33,212 nt of DNA from Bacteroidales bacterium (lineage in GTDB: Bacteria > Bacteroidota > Bacteroidia > Bacteroidales > Marinilabiliaceae): NCBI GenBank assembly GCA_024401355.1, contig JAKSLF010000030.1, positions 1 through 33,212 on the forward strand, written 5' to 3'. A model generated the notes under the pieces. The model made no database searches, was not told the DNA's origin, and saw only the letters and a program-made list of their open reading frames with translations. Below, piece after piece: positions 21,891-29,532 of this stretch (positions are counted from its first letter, which is position 1; each line of letters begins with the position of its first letter). Position numbers and translations under genes: made by a program.

Positions 21891-22283
21891 ATGGAGATTA
21901 TTAACGAAGAAGCCAAACCTGTTACCGGTAAAAAGTGTATTCTCATAGCAGAAGACACAGAGAGTAACTATATGCTCGTCTCTTACATATTAAAGAACGA
22001 TTATGAACTCGTATGGGCTCATGATGGTGTCGAGGCTCTTGAAATGTATGATGAAAGAAAGCCTGACCTCATTCTGATGGATGTCAGAATGCCTCGTCTT
22101 GGCGGACTTACTGCTACTTCACGCATTAGAGAAAAGGATAAGGAAACACCTATTATTGCTCTTACTGCTTTCGCTTTCGAAAGCGACAAAGCCAAGACTA
22201 TCGAGAGCGGCTGCAACGATTTCGTAGCTAAGCCTATCAATGCTAAGGCTCTGAAGGAAATCGTCAAAAGCTATATAGGATAA
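21891..22283 (+). CDS. Stand-alone response-regulator receiver protein
   Basis: 130 residues, a single REC domain. The acidic pair E21/D22, phosphoacceptor D64 (LILMDVRMP), T92 (IIALTAFAF) and K114 (VAKPI) are all in place, so it should be phosphorylated normally. It has no output domain. The sequence is closest in style to the C-terminal receivers of hybrid histidine kinases (TESNYMLVSYIL). A 12-residue N-terminal extension is not conserved in such domains. No kinase is in the window. It could act as a phosphate shuttle or bind a partner. It has its own promoter and lies 220 bases ahead of the ketosynthase operon, but nothing directly links the two. Confidence 0.9.
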   Translation: MEIINEEAKPVTGKKCILIAEDTESNYMLVSYILKNDYELVWAHDGVEALEMYDERKPDLILMDVRMPRLGGLTATSRIREKDKETPIIALTAFAFESDKAKTIESGCNDFVAKPINAKALKEIVKSYIG

Positions 22284-22505: not shown

Positions 22506-23726
22506 ATGGAAAGAAGAGTTGTAATAACCGGAATGGGCATCTACTCATGCCTCGGTAAGACACTTGACGAAGTTAAGACTTCTCTTTACACTGGAAAGTC
22601 AGGAATTGTTTTCGATCCTGTTCGTAAGGAGATGGGTTTCCGTTCGGCGTTGACTGCTAAGCTTGACGAACCGAACTTGAAAGGTGTGTTGTCTAGAAAT
22701 CAGAGAGTCTATATGGCTGAAGAGTGTAAGTACGCTTATGCAGCCACTAAGGATGCACTCGATTATGCTAAGCTCGATCTCGACTATCTCGAGAAGCATG
22801 CGGTTGGTCTTCTTTATGGTAATGATAGTAGTGCTGATGCCGTTGTTAAGAGTGTCGACACTATGCGCGAAAAGAAAGATACTACTCTCGTTGGTTCTGG
22901 AGCTATATTCCAGTCAATGAACTCTACCGTAACTATGAACCTCGGCACTCTCTTCAAGCTTCGCGGTATCAATATGACCGTCTCTGCTGCCTGCGCTTCT
23001 GGTTCACATGCTATCGGTCTCGGATCACTCCTCATTAAGTGGGGCCTCCAGGATATCATCGTCTGTGGTGGCGCTCAGGAGGTTAATCCATTCTCTATTG
23101 GCTCTTTCGATGGTATATCAGCCTTCTCTGCTCGCGAAAGCGAACCTACTAAGGCTAGTCGTCCTTTCGACCGCGACCGCGATGGTCTCGTACCTGGTGG
23201 TGGAGCTGCTACTGTTATCATCGAGGAATATGAACATGCTGTTAAGCGTGGTGCTCCTATCCTCGGCGAAATTATGGGTTACGGCTTCTCATCTAATGGT
23301 GACCATATCTCTTCTCCTAATGTCGACGGACCTGCTAATTCACTCAAGATGTGTCTCGAACAGGCTAAGATGAACATTAAGGATATCGGATATATCAATG
23401 CTCACGCTACTTCTACTCACGTGGGTGATACTAACGAGGCTAAGGCTATCTATAACGTATTCGGCGACCAGAAGGTGCCTGTTACTTCTACTAAGGGACA
23501 GACTGGTCACGAAATGTGGATGGCTGGCGCTAGCGAAATCATCTACTCTATGCTCATGATGAAGAATGATTTCATCGCCGCTAACCTCAACTTCGAAAAT
23601 CCAGACGAGGATTCAGCTAAGCTGAACATCCCTGGTGAGAGAATCTCCGCTCATTTCGATACGTTCCTCTCTAACTCATTCGGATTTGGCGGTACTAACT
23701 CTACTTTGATTGTAAAGAATTTGTGA
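22506..23726 (+). CDS. Beta-ketoacyl-ACP synthase of the polyene-lipid operon
   Basis: 406 residues. The Cys-His-His set is complete: C163 (SAACASGSH), H300 (NAHATSTHVGD), K330 and H335 (TSTKGQTGHEMWMAGASE), plus GFGGTN near the C-terminus. It should be a working condensing enzyme, not a chain-length factor. The family is FabB/FabF-like and resembles ketosynthases of aryl polyene and flexirubin pathways more than housekeeping FabF, judged mainly from its neighbours. It extends an acyl-ACP with malonyl-ACP in the cytoplasm. It is the first gene of a seven-gene plus-strand operon; ACP follows after 36 bases. Confidence 0.9.
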   Translation: MERRVVITGMGIYSCLGKTLDEVKTSLYTGKSGIVFDPVRKEMGFRSALTAKLDEPNLKGVLSRNQRVYMAEECKYAYAATKDALDYAKLDLDYLEKHAVGLLYGNDSSADAVVKSVDTMREKKDTTLVGSGAIFQSMNSTVTMNLGTLFKLRGINMTVSAACASGSHAIGLGSLLIKWGLQDIIVCGGAQEVNPFSIGSFDGISAFSARESEPTKASRPFDRDRDGLVPGGGAATVIIEEYEHAVKRGAPILGEIMGYGFSSNGDHISSPNVDGPANSLKMCLEQAKMNIKDIGYINAHATSTHVGDTNEAKAIYNVFGDQKVPVTSTKGQTGHEMWMAGASEIIYSMLMMKNDFIAANLNFENPDEDSAKLNIPGERISAHFDTFLSNSFGFGGTNSTLIVKNL

Positions 23727-23762
23727 TTTAGTTTATAATAATAATTTCAATAAGGATAACAA

Positions 23763-24008
23763 ATGGAAAATCAGGAATTAATTGCCCACATAAACGAAGT
23801 ACTTGCTGACGAGTTCGAAATTGAAGTGAGCGACATCACTCCAGATGCTAATATTAAGGAAACTCTTCAGCTCGATAGCCTCAGCCTTGTAGACATGGTT
23901 GCTTTGATCGAGAACGAGTTCTGTGTTAAGATTCAGAATTCTGAACTCCCTACAATTCAGTCTTTCGCTGATCTTTACGCTTTCATTGGCGCTAGAATGT
24001 CAAAGTAA
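23763..24008 (+). CDS. Acyl carrier protein
   Basis: 81 residues with the classic fold: acidic helix one, LQLDSLSLVDMVALIE at 35-50 with the phosphopantetheine serine S39 in DSL, and a third helix. It is probably dedicated to this pathway, because it lies inside the operon and differs from primary ACP, which usually reads GADSLD. It would carry the growing chain for the ketosynthase upstream and the dehydratases downstream. The next gene starts 14 bases on. Confidence 0.93.
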   Translation: MENQELIAHINEVLADEFEIEVSDITPDANIKETLQLDSLSLVDMVALIENEFCVKIQNSELPTIQSFADLYAFIGARMSK

Positions 24009-24022
24009 TTCGTCTTTATCAA

Positions 24023-24457
24023 ATGGATATCCAGAAGATATACAAAGACGAAGATATAAAAAAGCTACTTAACCAGCGCAATCCTATTCTTATGGTCGAT
24101 TCGCTCTCTGCAGTCGACGACCTTAACGGACTTGCTGGTCTGACCATACACGCAGACAACATGTTCTGCTACAATGGTAAATTTACTGAACCGGGGTTGA
24201 TTGAGCACATCGCTCAATCAGCGTCGGCTTTTGTAAGTTATAGGGCTATCGCCGAAGGCACTGCCGATAACGCCTTGCTTGGCTTTATCGGTGAGGTTAA
24301 GAAGTTCAAACTTTGTGGCGAACTACCATCTGTTAATGACATCCTCTCTACTACGGTTTCTATCCAGTCTTCTGTAATGAATATTACTATGTTTTCTGCT
24401 GAAACTAAGGTAAATGATAGGGTAGTGGCTACATGCCAAATGAAGTTGTCTGTCTAA
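24023..24457 (+). CDS. Hotdog-fold ApeP-like dehydratase
   Basis: 144 residues. The order NQRNPILMVDSL (about 17-28), then NGKFTEPGLIEHIAQSASAFVSY (about 51-73), is that of a FabZ-related hotdog protein. The family loop usually written HFPGxPxxPG is replaced by GKFTEPGL, so the usual catalytic His is missing, while the glutamate helix LIEHIAQ remains. This pattern resembles the ApeP-like group of aryl polyene clusters. It should remove water from 3-hydroxyacyl-ACP, or help the next gene product to do so. Exact role inferred from family and operon. Confidence 0.75.
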   Translation: MDIQKIYKDEDIKKLLNQRNPILMVDSLSAVDDLNGLAGLTIHADNMFCYNGKFTEPGLIEHIAQSASAFVSYRAIAEGTADNALLGFIGEVKKFKLCGELPSVNDILSTTVSIQSSVMNITMFSAETKVNDRVVATCQMKLSV

Positions 24458-24469
24458 TCTGTACCAGCT

Positions 24470-24841
24470 ATGAAGATGCTCGAAGGTTCCTATTTCGATG
24501 TCCTGTCTACTTCTAATGACAATGGCACATACTCTTTTGACATCCGTCTCCACAGCAACCATAAGGTCTATGACGGACATTTCCCTGGTAACCCAGTTTC
24601 GCCTGGCGTTTGCTCTATTGAAATGATTAGAGAATGCTCTGAAATGATTTTCTCTAAGCCTCTCACTATCTCTGCTGTATCTCAATGCAGATTTATTACT
24701 GTTCTGACTCCTGTCTCTTATGATAAGGCTGTCATTACTATCACTCCAACTGTTACTGGCGATTCTATTAAGGTCGTCGCTTCTATTACAGATGGAGCTG
24801 ACACAACTTTTGTGACATACAAGGGTGAGTATGTCGCCTAA
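24470..24841 (+). CDS. Hotdog-fold ApeI/FabZ-like dehydratase
   Basis: 123 residues. Here the catalytic loop is canonical: H37 in GHFPGNPVSPGV, with E51 in SIEMIREC. The protein is shorter than FabZ (about 150) and matches the ApeI-like type. It likely dehydrates 3-hydroxyacyl-ACP to the trans-2-enoyl form; without an enoyl reductase in the operon, double bonds would be kept and conjugated. It starts 12 bases after the other hotdog gene and 11 bases before the exporter. An ATG two codons on (24476) is an equal start. Confidence 0.82.
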   Translation: MKMLEGSYFDVLSTSNDNGTYSFDIRLHSNHKVYDGHFPGNPVSPGVCSIEMIRECSEMIFSKPLTISAVSQCRFITVLTPVSYDKAVITITPTVTGDSIKVVASITDGADTTFVTYKGEYVA

Positions 24842-24852
24842 ACGAACTTGAA

Positions 24853-27336
24853 ATGACTGATTTTGTAATTAATATATACAGATTTCTTGCAAAGCATAGA
24901 AAGACTAGAATAACTGCGCTTATTGTTAGCACAGTTATCTTTGTGTTTTTAGGTCTTAAGGTATCTTATGAAGAGGACATCTCTTCTCTTCTCCCTTCTA
25001 CTGACAATGGTAACGAGAAACTTGCATTCTCCAGCCTTAGGGTAAAGGATAAAATTTATATCCTTGTCGCTCCAAAAGAGGGTGAAGAACTCGATACCGA
25101 CGAACTTGTCGAACTGACTGACGAATTCGTCTCTACTATTCAGGAAAGAGATTCTGCTTCCCATCTCATCGACGATATCCTCTATCAGCTCGACGAGGAT
25201 GTTATGATGGATGCTCTCGGCTACCTCGGCGAACATTTCCCTATGTTCGTTGATGCCGATTCTTATGATGTTATCGATTCACTCCGTACCGACGAAAGTC
25301 TCAACGAGGTGATGCAGCGCAACTACGAGTTGCTCACTTCTTCTGAAGGTATGGCTATGAAAGGCATGATTCAGAGCGATCCTATCGGTATGCGCAAGAT
25401 TCTGCTTAACAAGTTTAAGGAGGTTAAAGATGGTATGGGTGGCAGCCATGCTATCTATGATAGCCATCTCTTTACTCCCGATACTACTATTGCTCTTGCA
25501 TATATCTCTCCTAGCTTCCAGTCTTTCGACTCTCGTAGCGGTTCCAAGCTTGTCGAGCTTCTCGAAACGGTTGTTGAAGAGATGGAGAGTGAACACCAGA
25601 ATATCGATATCCATTTCCATGGTGCTCCTATTCAGAGTGTGTATAATTCTCGACAGATTAAGAGCGACCTGACAATGACAGTTTCTATTTCTCTTGTCAT
25701 TATCTGCTTCATTATTCTTCTGTGCTTCAAGAATGTGTCTACTTTGCCTATGCTTCTCGCACCAGTCCTCTACGGCACTTTCTTCGCACTATCCATGATG
25801 TATCTCATACGTGGCACTATGTCTCTCCTTGCACTTGGCATCGGAGCTATAGTCCTTGGAGTAGCGCTAAGCTACTGCCTGCACGTTATTACTCATTATA
25901 AGTATGTTAGTGAACCAGAACAGGTGCTCCGCGATCAGGCTAAGCCTGTGTTCCTCGGATGCCTTACTACTATAGGATCTTTCCTCGGACTCCTTTTCAC
26001 TCAGTCCGACCTTCTTAAGGATTTCGGCCTTTTCGCTTCTTTCGCTCTGGTCGGAACTACTTTCTTCAGCCTTATCTTCTTGCCTCATTTCTTCAACCCA
26101 TCTAGAAACAAGAAGTCTAGGAAGGCTTTCGCTCTCCTCGAGAAGATTAATGCTCATCCATTCGAAAAACACTCTTGGCTCATTGTCTTGATTGTTATTA
26201 TTTGTGGTGTCAGCTTCTATACACAGTCTTTGGTTAAGTTCGATTCCGACTTGTCACACATTAGCTTCTATCGCCAGGAGGTGCTCAAGTCAATGGATCT
26301 ATATGCCAAGAAGACACAAAGCGGATATACTACTGTCTATTATGCTGCTTCGTCTTACGATCTTGATTCCGCTCTGATGACGAGCCGCAAGATGGTCGCT
26401 AAGCTCGACAGCATGAAGGCTGATGGCAAGATATTTGGTTTCTCTAAGGCTTCCAACCTTTTCCTCACTACTGACGAACAACAGGAGAATATCGATATGT
26501 GGCAGGAGTACTGGGACGACGATAAGGTCCAGTCTACTATCGCTAAGGTTAAGAAGGTTGGAGCTAAATATGGCTTTAAGGACGAGTTCTTCGAGTCATT
26601 CAATGATTTGGTTACCGACGACTACGAACCAGAATCTCTTTTCGAGGCTGGCATCATTCCTGATGGTCTTCTCGCTAATATGATTGAATGTACTGATAGT
26701 GTTTATATGGTATTCACTTCCGTACAGCTCAAGCCAGAAGATAAGTTCGATATTGGTAATGAAATCATCAAGATACCTGATGTAGTGGTCGTCGATCCTA
26801 TGTTCTATGCCAACGAAATGGTCAAGACTATCAACAACGATTTCAATATTGCTCTCAATATTTCAATGGCATTCGTCTTTATCGTGCTGTTGCTCTCTTT
26901 CCGCAATATTGTCTTGTCTCTGTTGGCTTTCTTGCCTATGGCTCTAAGCTGGTTCATTGTCTTGGGCTTCATGGGTATTTTCGACCTTCAGTTTAATCTT
27001 ATCAATATTGTTATCTCGACATTCATCTTCGGTATTGGTGTCGATTACAGTATTTTCGTCATGGAGGGTCTCCTCTCTAAGGTCCGTCCAGGTACAGACG
27101 CTCGCTTGCTGATGTTCCATAAGACTGCCATTTTCTTCTCGGCTGTAGTTCTTATGGTGACTACCGGATCTCTCCTCCTGGCAACTCACCCTGCACTTAA
27201 GTCTATTGGCATAGCTACTATTATAGGCATGAGTGCTGCTGTGATTCTTGCATATACTCTTCAGCCTTTCCTCTTTCATCACATTGTCAAGTTCATTAAA
27301 AGGAAGAACTTGAACGTTAAATGGATTAAGAATTAA
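24853..27336 (+). CDS. MMPL/RND-type lipid exporter
   Basis: 827 residues in two repeats, each with a first helix, a large periplasmic loop and five more helices. Helices lie near 20-36, 270-425 and 440-458 in the first half and near 670-815 in the second. The proton-relay motif GIGVDYSIFV is in the second half only; the matching place in the first half reads VLGVALSYCLHV with no Asp. Relatives in aryl polyene loci are called predicted exporters and are thought to move the finished lipid across or out of the inner membrane. The oxidoreductase gene starts four bases after its stop. Confidence 0.87.
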   Translation: MTDFVINIYRFLAKHRKTRITALIVSTVIFVFLGLKVSYEEDISSLLPSTDNGNEKLAFSSLRVKDKIYILVAPKEGEELDTDELVELTDEFVSTIQERDSASHLIDDILYQLDEDVMMDALGYLGEHFPMFVDADSYDVIDSLRTDESLNEVMQRNYELLTSSEGMAMKGMIQSDPIGMRKILLNKFKEVKDGMGGSHAIYDSHLFTPDTTIALAYISPSFQSFDSRSGSKLVELLETVVEEMESEHQNIDIHFHGAPIQSVYNSRQIKSDLTMTVSISLVIICFIILLCFKNVSTLPMLLAPVLYGTFFALSMMYLIRGTMSLLALGIGAIVLGVALSYCLHVITHYKYVSEPEQVLRDQAKPVFLGCLTTIGSFLGLLFTQSDLLKDFGLFASFALVGTTFFSLIFLPHFFNPSRNKKSRKAFALLEKINAHPFEKHSWLIVLIVIICGVSFYTQSLVKFDSDLSHISFYRQEVLKSMDLYAKKTQSGYTTVYYAASSYDLDSALMTSRKMVAKLDSMKADGKIFGFSKASNLFLTTDEQQENIDMWQEYWDDDKVQSTIAKVKKVGAKYGFKDEFFESFNDLVTDDYEPESLFEAGIIPDGLLANMIECTDSVYMVFTSVQLKPEDKFDIGNEIIKIPDVVVVDPMFYANEMVKTINNDFNIALNISMAFVFIVLLLSFRNIVLSLLAFLPMALSWFIVLGFMGIFDLQFNLINIVISTFIFGIGVDYSIFVMEGLLSKVRPGTDARLLMFHKTAIFFSAVVLMVTTGSLLLATHPALKSIGIATIIGMSAAVILAYTLQPFLFHHIVKFIKRKNLNVKWIKN

Positions 27337-27340
27337 GATT

Positions 27341-28834
27341 ATGGCTGAGAAGTTTGATGTCGCTATCATCGGTGCCGGATTAGGTGGACTCGAGTGCGGA
27401 CTTATGCTTGCTAAGCATGGCAAGAAGGTTTGTGTACTCGAAAAGGACGCTCTCATCGGAGGTTGCCTGCAGACGTTCCGCCGCAAAGGTGTAAGTCTTG
27501 ATACTGGTTTCCACTATGTAGGAGGTCTCGATAAGGGACAGATGCTTTATAAGTTGTTCTCTTTCTTCGGACTTATGGATCTTCCTTGGGTCAAGATGGA
27601 CGATTTCTTCGACGAGGTCGTAATTAAAGGTGAACACTTCCACATAGCTCAGGGCTTCGAACTTTATAGCAATACTCTCAAGCAGGCTTTCCCTGACAAT
27701 TCTAGCGAAATAGATGTATGGGTCGATCTTCTTATGAAGGTTGGCTACAATATCGAAAAGAGTTTTGAACCACGCGATACTGAGGATTTCTATACTCAGT
27801 CACTCTTCTCACAGTCTGCCTACGATTTCCTCAAGAAGACTTTCTCTAACGATACTCTTATTGATGTCGTTTCCGGACCTTCTCTTAAGATGGAACTCCA
27901 TCCCGAGAAGTTGCCTCTCTACACTTTCGCACAGATTAATAGTAGCTTCATCCAGAGCGCTTATCGTCTTCGTGGTGGTGGTATGCAGATTGCAGAGTCT
28001 CTTCGCCGACAAATAGAGGATAAGGGTGGAGTAGTGCGACGTAATGCTAAGGTTACAGGTGTCATTGAAGCCGACGGTAAGATTGGAGCTCTTGTTGTCA
28101 ACGATTCTGAATCCGTTGAGGCAGATTTCTTTATCTCCGACATTCATCCAGCCGCTACAATGAATCTGATGGAGAATACAAAACTCATCAGAAATATATA
28201 TAGAAAACGAATAAATGGTCTCGAGAATACTTTCGGAATGTTCACTACTCATCTGATTCTGAAGCCCGAAACTATTAAGTATATCAATAACAATATATTC
28301 GCATATACCGAGTCAGATTTGTGGCATATTAGCCAGTCTTCTAGCACTGGTGATGTCAAGCAGATTCTTATTTCTGTCAATCCATCCGACGACAACTCTG
28401 ATTTCGTTCGAAATATAGATATCCTTACTCCTATGAATTGGAGCGAGGTTGAACCATGGTTTGGCACGAATATTGCATCGAGAGGTAATGACTACGAACT
28501 GATGAAGAAGTCGGTTGCCGATAAGTGTATTGCTGAAGCTTCAAAATACATCGACGGCTTGCAAGAGGCTATTGAAGATGTCTATACTAGCACTCCTCTG
28601 ACCTATTGCGACTACACGGCTACAAAGGACGGTTCTGCCTATGGCATCCGAAAGGATTGTAATCAATTGATGTTTACGGTCCTGACTCCTCGAACTCCTG
28701 TACCAAACCTTCTTCTCACAGGTCAAAGTCTTAATTTGCACGGTATTCTCGGCACTTCTATGACTTCCGTTTTTACTTGTGCAGAAATACTCGGTATTGA
28801 TACAATAGTTAATGACTTGAAAGATATAAAATGA
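27341..28834 (+). CDS. Phytoene-desaturase-like FAD oxidoreductase
   Basis: 497 residues. The N-terminal dinucleotide fold has GAGLGGLECGLMLAKHG at 11-27 and the FAD ribose Glu in VCVLEKD; CLQTFRRKGVSLDTGFHYVGG near 45-65 is the second FAD contact typical of CrtI and carotene isomerases. The C-terminus has LLLTGQSLNLHGILGTSMTS, a modified form of the family end signature. Carotenoid genes such as crtB and crtE are absent, so the substrate is more likely the polyene chain, which it could desaturate, isomerise or cyclise. Its stop overlaps the next start as ATGA, a sign of coupled translation. Confidence 0.85.
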   Translation: MAEKFDVAIIGAGLGGLECGLMLAKHGKKVCVLEKDALIGGCLQTFRRKGVSLDTGFHYVGGLDKGQMLYKLFSFFGLMDLPWVKMDDFFDEVVIKGEHFHIAQGFELYSNTLKQAFPDNSSEIDVWVDLLMKVGYNIEKSFEPRDTEDFYTQSLFSQSAYDFLKKTFSNDTLIDVVSGPSLKMELHPEKLPLYTFAQINSSFIQSAYRLRGGGMQIAESLRRQIEDKGGVVRRNAKVTGVIEADGKIGALVVNDSESVEADFFISDIHPAATMNLMENTKLIRNIYRKRINGLENTFGMFTTHLILKPETIKYINNNIFAYTESDLWHISQSSSTGDVKQILISVNPSDDNSDFVRNIDILTPMNWSEVEPWFGTNIASRGNDYELMKKSVADKCIAEASKYIDGLQEAIEDVYTSTPLTYCDYTATKDGSAYGIRKDCNQLMFTVLTPRTPVPNLLLTGQSLNLHGILGTSMTSVFTCAEILGIDTIVNDLKDIK

Positions 28835-29451
28835 AAAAGTTTTTTTATAGTGCAGTCGCTCTGCTTCTTTCTGTGACTTATGCAGGTGGACAGCTCAAGA
28901 ATTCTAATGGCAATGCAACTCTTGCTAAGATTAAGACCGCTAATGAAAAGGTGACTACGATGAGTTGCTCTTTCACTAGAACAATCAAGCAGTCTATGCT
29001 CGATCAGTCTGCTAAGGCCGATGGCAATTTCAATTATACAAAGGACAACAAACTTAGCATGGTCTATACCAATGGCGAAATGGTTGTAATTAACAATAAT
29101 GAAGTCGCTATAGGTAAAAAAGGTAAGGTCCGTCACCTGAAGGCTAAAAGCAAGCATGCTGAGCCACTCGTAAATACACTTCTTGGTTGCGTTTCTGGCA
29201 ATCTCGACAAGTTGGATGGAACTCTCGAAAGTGTCAAAGAAGCTAATGGTGTAAGCACTGTAATTATTACAGTTGATAACTTCAAGGTAGGGCAGAGCAA
29301 GTTCTCTAAGGTAGAACTTAATTATGGTGCCGACCTCACTATCCAGAGCATTAAAATGACTGAGGCTGATGGTAGTTATACATTATATGAACTCCAAAGC
29401 AAGACATTAAATAAGAGTATTGACGATAAGGTATATAATACAGAAAAATAA
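28831..29451 (+). CDS. LolA-like periplasmic lipid carrier
   Basis: 206 residues with a signal peptide (about 1-20, MKKFFYSAVALLLSVTYAGG). The mature part fits the LolA/LppX half-barrel: TMSCSFTRTIKQSM early, DGNFNYTKDNKLSMVYTNGEMVVIN in the middle, and KVELNYGADLTIQSIKMTEADGSYTLYEL at the end. LolA-like proteins in aryl polyene loci carry the product over the periplasm, while housekeeping LolA carries lipoproteins. It is the last gene of the operon and is followed by a bidirectional terminator. Cargo is inferred. Confidence 0.82.
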   Translation: MKKFFYSAVALLLSVTYAGGQLKNSNGNATLAKIKTANEKVTTMSCSFTRTIKQSMLDQSAKADGNFNYTKDNKLSMVYTNGEMVVINNNEVAIGKKGKVRHLKAKSKHAEPLVNTLLGCVSGNLDKLDGTLESVKEANGVSTVIITVDNFKVGQSKFSKVELNYGADLTIQSIKMTEADGSYTLYELQSKTLNKSIDDKVYNTEK

Positions 29452-29495: not shown

Positions 29496-29532
29496 ACAAA
29501 GCAGCATTGGTACTCAATGCTGCTTGTTGTTT
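29496..29532. terminator. Bidirectional terminator between the lipid operon and clpB
   Basis: AAGCAGCATT at 29499-29508 and AATGCTGCTT at 29516-29525 form a perfect 10-bp stem with a 7-base loop. T-rich sequence follows on the + strand (29526-29532) and on the minus strand (29498 downwards), so it can serve the convergent genes on both sides. Confidence 0.85.

Follow-up and report, generated by a model that had tools for sequence, protein, structure and literature searches.

Aryl polyenes and flexirubins are regarded as aromatic pigments, which raises the question of what is made by a related operon that has no aromatic starter genes beside it. Such an operon of seven genes lies at positions 22506-29451 of a 33,212-nucleotide stretch of DNA from a Bacteroidales bacterium of the Marinilabiliaceae (assembly GCA_024401355.1, contig JAKSLF010000030.1), here called the window. 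Judged by sequence comparison, the operon is real and conserved, a sister of the flexirubin and aryl-polyene clusters without their starter-lyase and chain-length-factor (CLF) features, and it most likely works like the elongation and export halves of those clusters. The window is one entire contig (C24 of 69) of a 2.9 Mb assembly that is 85% complete, and therefore absence from the window does not amount to absence from the genome.

Gene content of the operon

The seven open reading frames (ORFs) share the forward strand and are separated by gaps of 36, 14, 12, 11 and 4 bases and by one overlap of 4 bases. Their content, coordinates, strand and domain families, as well as the active-site residues named in a first-pass annotation of this DNA, were all confirmed. 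The first gene encodes a FabB/ApeR/FlxC-like ketosynthase (KS) of 406 aa (22506-23726; PF00109 at 9e-32, PF02801 at 1.1e-30; the trees are described below) with the triad C163-H300-H335, followed by an acyl carrier protein (ACP; 23763-24008; PF00550 at 1.5e-9) with S39. Two hotdog proteins come next. DH1 (24023-24457) is of the FabZ kind according to an NCBIfam FabZ model (1.3e-8) and has no Pfam match; it lacks the histidine of the HFPG motif, and in a column comparison of 46 rows its E61 is invariant and H62 is present in 97%. DH2 (24470-24841) is a hotdog dehydratase matching PF07977 at 1.1e-4 (22.3 bits, just below the cut-off of 23); its H37, in the motif HFPGNPVSPG, occurs in 46/46 rows, and position 51, E in the window protein, is Q in 40 rows and E in three. 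The remaining genes encode an MMPL/RND-family exporter of 827 aa (24853-27336; PF03176 at 1.8e-24, HpnN model at 3.6e-32, under its cut-off), a CrtI-type flavoprotein of 497 aa (FAD; 27341-28834; PF01593 at 1.8e-12, NCBIfam TIGR02733 at 7.7e-36), and a LolA-like periplasmic carrier (28831-29451; PF03548 at 7.5e-8). The latter scores 90.7 bits against the NCBIfam LolA2_flexi model, whose cut-off is 125, so this flexirubin feature is not assigned to it, and no sequence relative was found for it among solved structures at E 0.1.

A Pfam comparison of the 27 larger ORFs in the window revealed no lyase, ligase, short-chain dehydrogenase/reductase, acyltransferase, methyltransferase or second KS, in agreement with the first-pass annotation, which had also noted the kinship with parts of aryl polyene and flexirubin clusters; this kinship holds. 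The 4-coumarate-CoA ligase FlxY was likewise absent from the window by Pfam, the genome as a whole not having been searched for a ligase.

Conservation, spread and lineage

A flavoprotein of the window type was found in 15/15 genomes of the genus (own included), with 54-72% identity in the other 14. All seven genes occur in order in six of these 15 (G000-G005) and in G017, which belongs to a sister genus, and because the entire set recurs in this way, chance does not explain it. In five further genomes (G007-G010 and G013) FAD and LolA stand alone at the locus, KS and MMPL not having been sought in G007-G010, while in G012 the locus ends at the contig end and was not judged. G013 retains KS, ACP, MMPL, FAD and LolA, spread over three contigs, with the KS on its contig C8; ACP-MMPL lie on C14, next to U32 and receiver genes like those flanking the window operon. 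An acyltransferase match at 1e-30 was obtained in only one of 11 genus genomes (G004, among G000-G010), and G017 has a related gene at the locus. This pattern suggests that KS, ACP, MMPL, FAD and LolA are the specific parts and that the ketoreductase (KR), thioesterase (TE) and dehydratases can be replaced.

Beyond the genus, a FAD profile built from 17 proteins retrieved at least 538 relatives, of which the best 80 were all labelled Bacteroidota, mostly Bacteroidales groups; many of these came from rumen and horse faeces, and Tannerella forsythia and Mediterranea were included. Loci were scored for 79 of these 80, those with the best-scoring window-type FAD ORF on the plus strand, over up to 10 kb on each side (many are shorter on one side). 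Genes were called by BLAST searches (1e-4) with one reference protein each, a procedure that divergent LolA or hotdog genes may escape, and the loci are interrelated and come partly from the same genomes as G001-G017, so the tallies are not independent. Tyrosine ammonia-lyase (TAL), methyltransferase, CLF, lysophospholipid acyltransferase (LPLAT), glycosyltransferase and a third ACP were found at none of the 79 scored loci, which supports the proposed separation from aryl starter genes.

Gene contents were counted in the 46 loci whose sequence reaches at least 7.6 kb upstream and 2.6 kb downstream of FAD, the 33 with shorter flanks being excluded: KS 38, ACP 34, DH1 33, MMPL 32, DH2 31, TE 28, LolA 20, acyltransferase (AT) 17 and KR 13. 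The fullest form, AT-KS-ACP-DH1-TE-DH2-MMPL-FAD-KR-LolA, is present at five loci, and the commonest pattern, KS-ACP-DH1-TE-DH2-MMPL-FAD, at 13. In the two examples scanned, the gene at the upstream end proved to be an acyltransferase of family PF01553. The description of the operon as a minimal cluster is therefore right for the window itself and not for its relatives, since acyltransferase, thioesterase or ketoreductase, or more than one of them, is retained at 36/46 loci. Likewise, some of the genes missing from the window do adjoin the operon in relatives (ketoreductase at 13 and acyltransferase at 17 loci), whereas lyase and KS/CLF do so at none of the 46; the ligase was not sought there. 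On gene content, the window operon is read as a trimmed local form of an operon found in many Bacteroidales. At two Tannerella forsythia loci (L117 and L118) only KS and FAD stand together, beside an MMPL gene on the opposite strand, with TAL elsewhere in the genome.

In regard to its lineage, the window-type KS forms one clade of 51 rows with support of 100/97 in a careful tree of 60 rows, from which nine long-branched rows were excluded (tree input was limited to KS rows of 370-450 aa and FAD rows of 440-600 aa, others being dropped, and the CLF row consisted of its first 400 residues). In a quick tree with long outer branches, this clade is nearest to the KSs of TAL clusters and lies with them on the FabB side; it joins E. 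coli FabB at 97, and the FabF-like KS of the same genome (C17) and E. coli FabF lie outside. A housekeeping FabF identity is thus rejected, as the tree check proposed in the first-pass annotation allowed, and the KS was counted as FabB-like (ApeR-type), in a tree that included no ApeR sequence. Catalytic residues are retained in 51/51 rows, and the cavity residues fail to separate aryl-linked from window-type KSs. The flavoproteins are split by a single branch at 100 (FastTree) into 84 window-type and 11 aryl-cluster-type rows, the latter including a second copy of the C1 flavoprotein described below and some rows from genomes in which TAL was not found. Judged by these trees, the window operon is a lineage separate from the flexirubin-like set on contig C1 of the same genome.

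Flexirubin-like loci and the ketoreductase in trans

The genome holds five PF00109 matches, two of them on C1. At 115.7-128 kb this contig carries a FAD, a KS, an ACP, the tyrosine ammonia-lyase FlxA, a PurF-like ORF, the ketoreductase FlxB, another ACP, an LPLAT, the methyltransferase FlxJ, a FabZ-like hotdog protein, a YbgC-type thioesterase, a KS/CLF-like protein of 568 aa and a third ACP. FlxA scores 815.6 bits (cut-off 700), FlxB 372.3 (cut-off 340) and FlxJ 594.3 (cut-off 560). A second locus at 262-270 kb encodes a LolA, a hotdog protein, a GT2-DUF2062 protein and an MMPL fused to a PF01553 acyltransferase. The lyase, ketoreductase and methyltransferase absent from the window thus occur in trans on C1, alongside a second set of KS, FAD, MMPL and LolA. 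The two sets differ: the C1 loci carry FlxA, FlxB, FlxJ, KS/CLF, three ACPs, the thioesterase and the MMPL-acyltransferase fusion, and identities between paralogs are 56% for KS, 38% for DH1, 35% over 69 residues for DH2, 31% for MMPL, 30% for FAD and 27% for LolA. In four other genomes (G030, G056, G057 and G029) most C1-type genes form a single cluster with TAL adjoining KR and KS.

Several further features of such aryl-type clusters were observed. The PurF-like ORF (L006 15423-16832, on C1 of G000; named by eye) lies between TAL and KR within the flexirubin-like cluster. An ORF of 455 aa occupies the place of FlxJ in two loci (L134 2681-4048 in G030 and L136 2238 in G056), and in G030 it is a B12-binding radical SAM protein. 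A PF03417 protein of the acyl-CoA:6-APA acyltransferase type follows FAD in three loci (L043 6074-7777, L128 10022-11677 and L138 9050-10714), and adjacent pairs of CrtI-type paralogs occur in two (L138 6056-9045 in G029 and L126 13951-16952 in G011).

The ketoreductase deserves separate consideration, as the first-pass annotation had assigned the reduction step to the primary FabG. A single FlxB-type KR was found in each of the 26 tested genomes with a window-type flavoprotein, with 61-100% identity to the query, which came from Mediterranea (itself the source of the 100% value) and was searched at 1e-50. Additional matches at this threshold appeared in two of the 26 genomes only and were FabG-like, with 41-42% identity. 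The KR of Mediterranea, where TAL was not found, lies above the FlxB cut-off (406.5 vs 340 bits). In 40/40 FlxB-type KR ORFs, a set that includes the one on C1 and some genomes under two names, the lid is three residues shorter than in E. coli FabG, and two FabG-like paralogs from operon genomes have a full-length lid. Position 183 is Phe in 38 of the 40 and Tyr in two, which means that these enzymes do not have the aryl contact that Leu185 provides in ApeQ. According to PMC8041823, the lid of ApeQ is shortened and FabG was unable to replace ApeQ in vitro. Taken together, the FlxB-type KR in all 26 genomes, the ApeQ-like short lid and the failure of FabG to replace ApeQ argue for, without proving, a dedicated KR in trans, and the same reasoning speaks against reliance on the primary FabG. 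In this genome the candidate is at C1:121958-122686.

TAL was sought in the genomes of 30 of the 80 loci, which come without completeness values, so that some absences may be assembly gaps. It was not found in nine of the 30. Genomes without a TAL match include G004 (97% complete), G011 (98%) and G054 (99%).

Proposed function and its alternatives

Compared with known systems, the operon shares KS, ACP, two dehydratases, LolA and an exporter with the flexirubin cluster of Chitinophaga pinensis and Flavobacterium johnsoniae (PMC3992019). The FlxB-type KR of that cluster is shared in trans, and its acyltransferase only by fuller relatives, whereas its FlxA TAL, FlxJ methyltransferase and KS/CLF are found neither in the window operon nor nearby. 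The window KS is nearest to KSs that adjoin FlxA-FlxB in relatives. Aryl polyene clusters of E. coli, Xenorhabdus and Acinetobacter (PMC8253772, PMC8358021, PMC8041823) likewise have a FabB-like KS, ApeR, and ApeI/ApeP correspond to DH1/DH2, ApeM to the RND/MMPL exporter, ApeL to the LolA-like carrier and ApeQ to the KR in trans. They differ in having the KS/CLF pair ApeO-ApeC, where the window operon has one KS, one ACP, no ligase in the window and, in addition, a CrtI-type flavoprotein. ApeR is reported to make polyenes with up to four double bonds (PMC8358021).

On balance, we lean towards a type II synthase module of the flexirubin/aryl-polyene type that works without the tyrosine-derived starter branch and makes a short polyenoyl chain for export. 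In such a scheme, the KS with its own ACP would add malonyl units to a starter drawn from primary metabolism or to some other acyl group carried on an ACP, the beta-keto group would be reduced by the FlxB/ApeQ-type KR in trans, and DH1 and DH2 would dehydrate the product. ApeI and ApeP act as a pair. The double bonds would stay because no enoyl reductase is encoded, leaving a short polyenoyl chain on which the flavoprotein might then act, whether by isomerising it, by desaturating it further or by saturating it in part. The chain could be put on a lipid by the PlsC-family acyltransferase present at 17/46 loci, or by some other acyltransferase in this genome, and MMPL and LolA would carry the product to the outer membrane. 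The suggestion that the desaturase-like enzyme substitutes for the starter genes did not survive, because homologous flavoproteins sit in TAL clusters too. A wider proposal can be put forward tentatively, and we give it somewhat less credence: that the operon represents a Bacteroidales-wide non-aromatic sister of flexirubin and aryl-polyene biosynthesis, a FlxC/FlxB-type module whose flavoprotein resembles carotenoid desaturases. It would make an alkyl polyene lipid for export to the outer membrane, would run alongside the pigment pathway that starts from tyrosine, and could use the same ketoreductase, dehydratases and thioesterase as that pathway.

Several observations weigh against the favoured reading. 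TAL is present in 21 of the 30 genomes (one partial), so the operon might aid an aryl pathway. The aryl-contact position of the KS (FabB M138) is Met both in the window clade and in TAL-linked KSs and does not tell the starter. The KR tally covers only genomes with a window-type flavoprotein, and in three TAL-less genomes (G007, G009 and G010) the KR is found away from every known partner, with no other polyene gene beside it and an adenylate-kinase-like ORF (named by eye) as its neighbour. The operons of G006 (L039), G011 (L041) and G014 (L026) consist of KS-ACP-MMPL-FAD-LolA and lack both DH1 and DH2, and LolA was found at fewer than half of the full-flank loci.

The same TAL distribution also favours a rival reading, in which the operon is a detached part of the genome's own aryl-polyene pathway and unable to work alone, its contribution being a precursor, another acyl arm or a pigment variant. 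In favour of this reading too, the C1 cluster has the KR and thioesterase that are absent from the window operon and present in many relatives' operons, and KR-less loci fall in TAL genomes in 14/16 cases vs 7/14 for loci with KR (Fisher p 0.046, kinship ignored, and one locus, L100, ending early downstream). However, whole operons exist where TAL was not found (L105, L112, L113, L119 and L121), the aryl loci of this genome own a separate KS, FAD, MMPL and LolA, and the KS and FAD lineages are distinct, which leaves this explanation unlikely, though still to be reckoned with.

It is less probable again that the flavoprotein is a saturase resembling retinol saturase, or that the chain is reduced otherwise, the product being a specialised saturated or mono-unsaturated lipid and no polyene. 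CrtI-type flavoproteins include isomerases and saturases besides desaturases, and retinol saturase and carotenoid isomerase are akin. A FabA/FabB-like branch making ordinary unsaturated membrane fatty acids would agree with the grouping of the KS with E. coli FabB at 97, but MMPL, LolA and FAD in the same operon and an ACP of its own make it very improbable. Finally, a decaying remnant of a larger cluster, to which the scattering or partial loss of the operon in 8/15 genus genomes might point (G012 not judged), is scarcely credible given KS identities of 81-96% in the nine other genus genomes where it was located, catalytic residues intact throughout the clade, and the presence of KS, MMPL and FAD alike in 6/6 genomes searched (this one plus five others that are at least 97% complete; TAL in four of the six; the genus set drawn at a completeness of at least 93, own included, likewise comprised six genomes).

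The surroundings of the operon are unrelated by Pfam: other window ORFs match TonB plug, DUF4154, SMC-like ATPase, ABC transporter, lactate/malate dehydrogenase, phosphomannomutase, CrcB, Fmt, SIS, carbohydrate-binding module, sulfatase, U32, receiver, ClpB and DciA families, and five (8501, 13187, 15852, 16431 and 32302) have no match. The receiver domain (21891-22283, forward strand; PF00072 at 6.1e-28) is a syntenic upstream neighbour whose membership in the operon is unproven, and it adjoins the KS in G001, G005 and G014 too. In the window it has 130 aa; its relatives in G001, G004 and G005 lie within proteins of 628-646 aa, the one in G004 at the C-terminal end, and the rest of that protein is missing from the window. 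A terminator-like hairpin between lolA and the convergent clpB (29499-29525) came from a pattern scan with 7 such sites in the scanned region vs 5.2 expected. A Bacteroidales promoter consensus gave 0 matches in the window vs 0.83 expected, and a sigma-70 scan 20 vs 16.7 in shuffles, and on these figures no promoter is assigned.

Searches of open-licence PubMed Central papers turned up no account of an operon of this type without TAL. The operon, with its strongly conserved KS, occurs in many Bacteroidales, many of them from rumen or horse faeces, and in some genomes without detectable TAL, and its elongation set consists of a few small proteins that lend themselves to work in vitro. If its product is a non-aromatic polyene lipid, a genome miner that labels these loci 'arylpolyene' would be assigning them an incorrect product, and a lipid for which no description was found would form part of the outer envelope in a large animal-associated group of bacteria.

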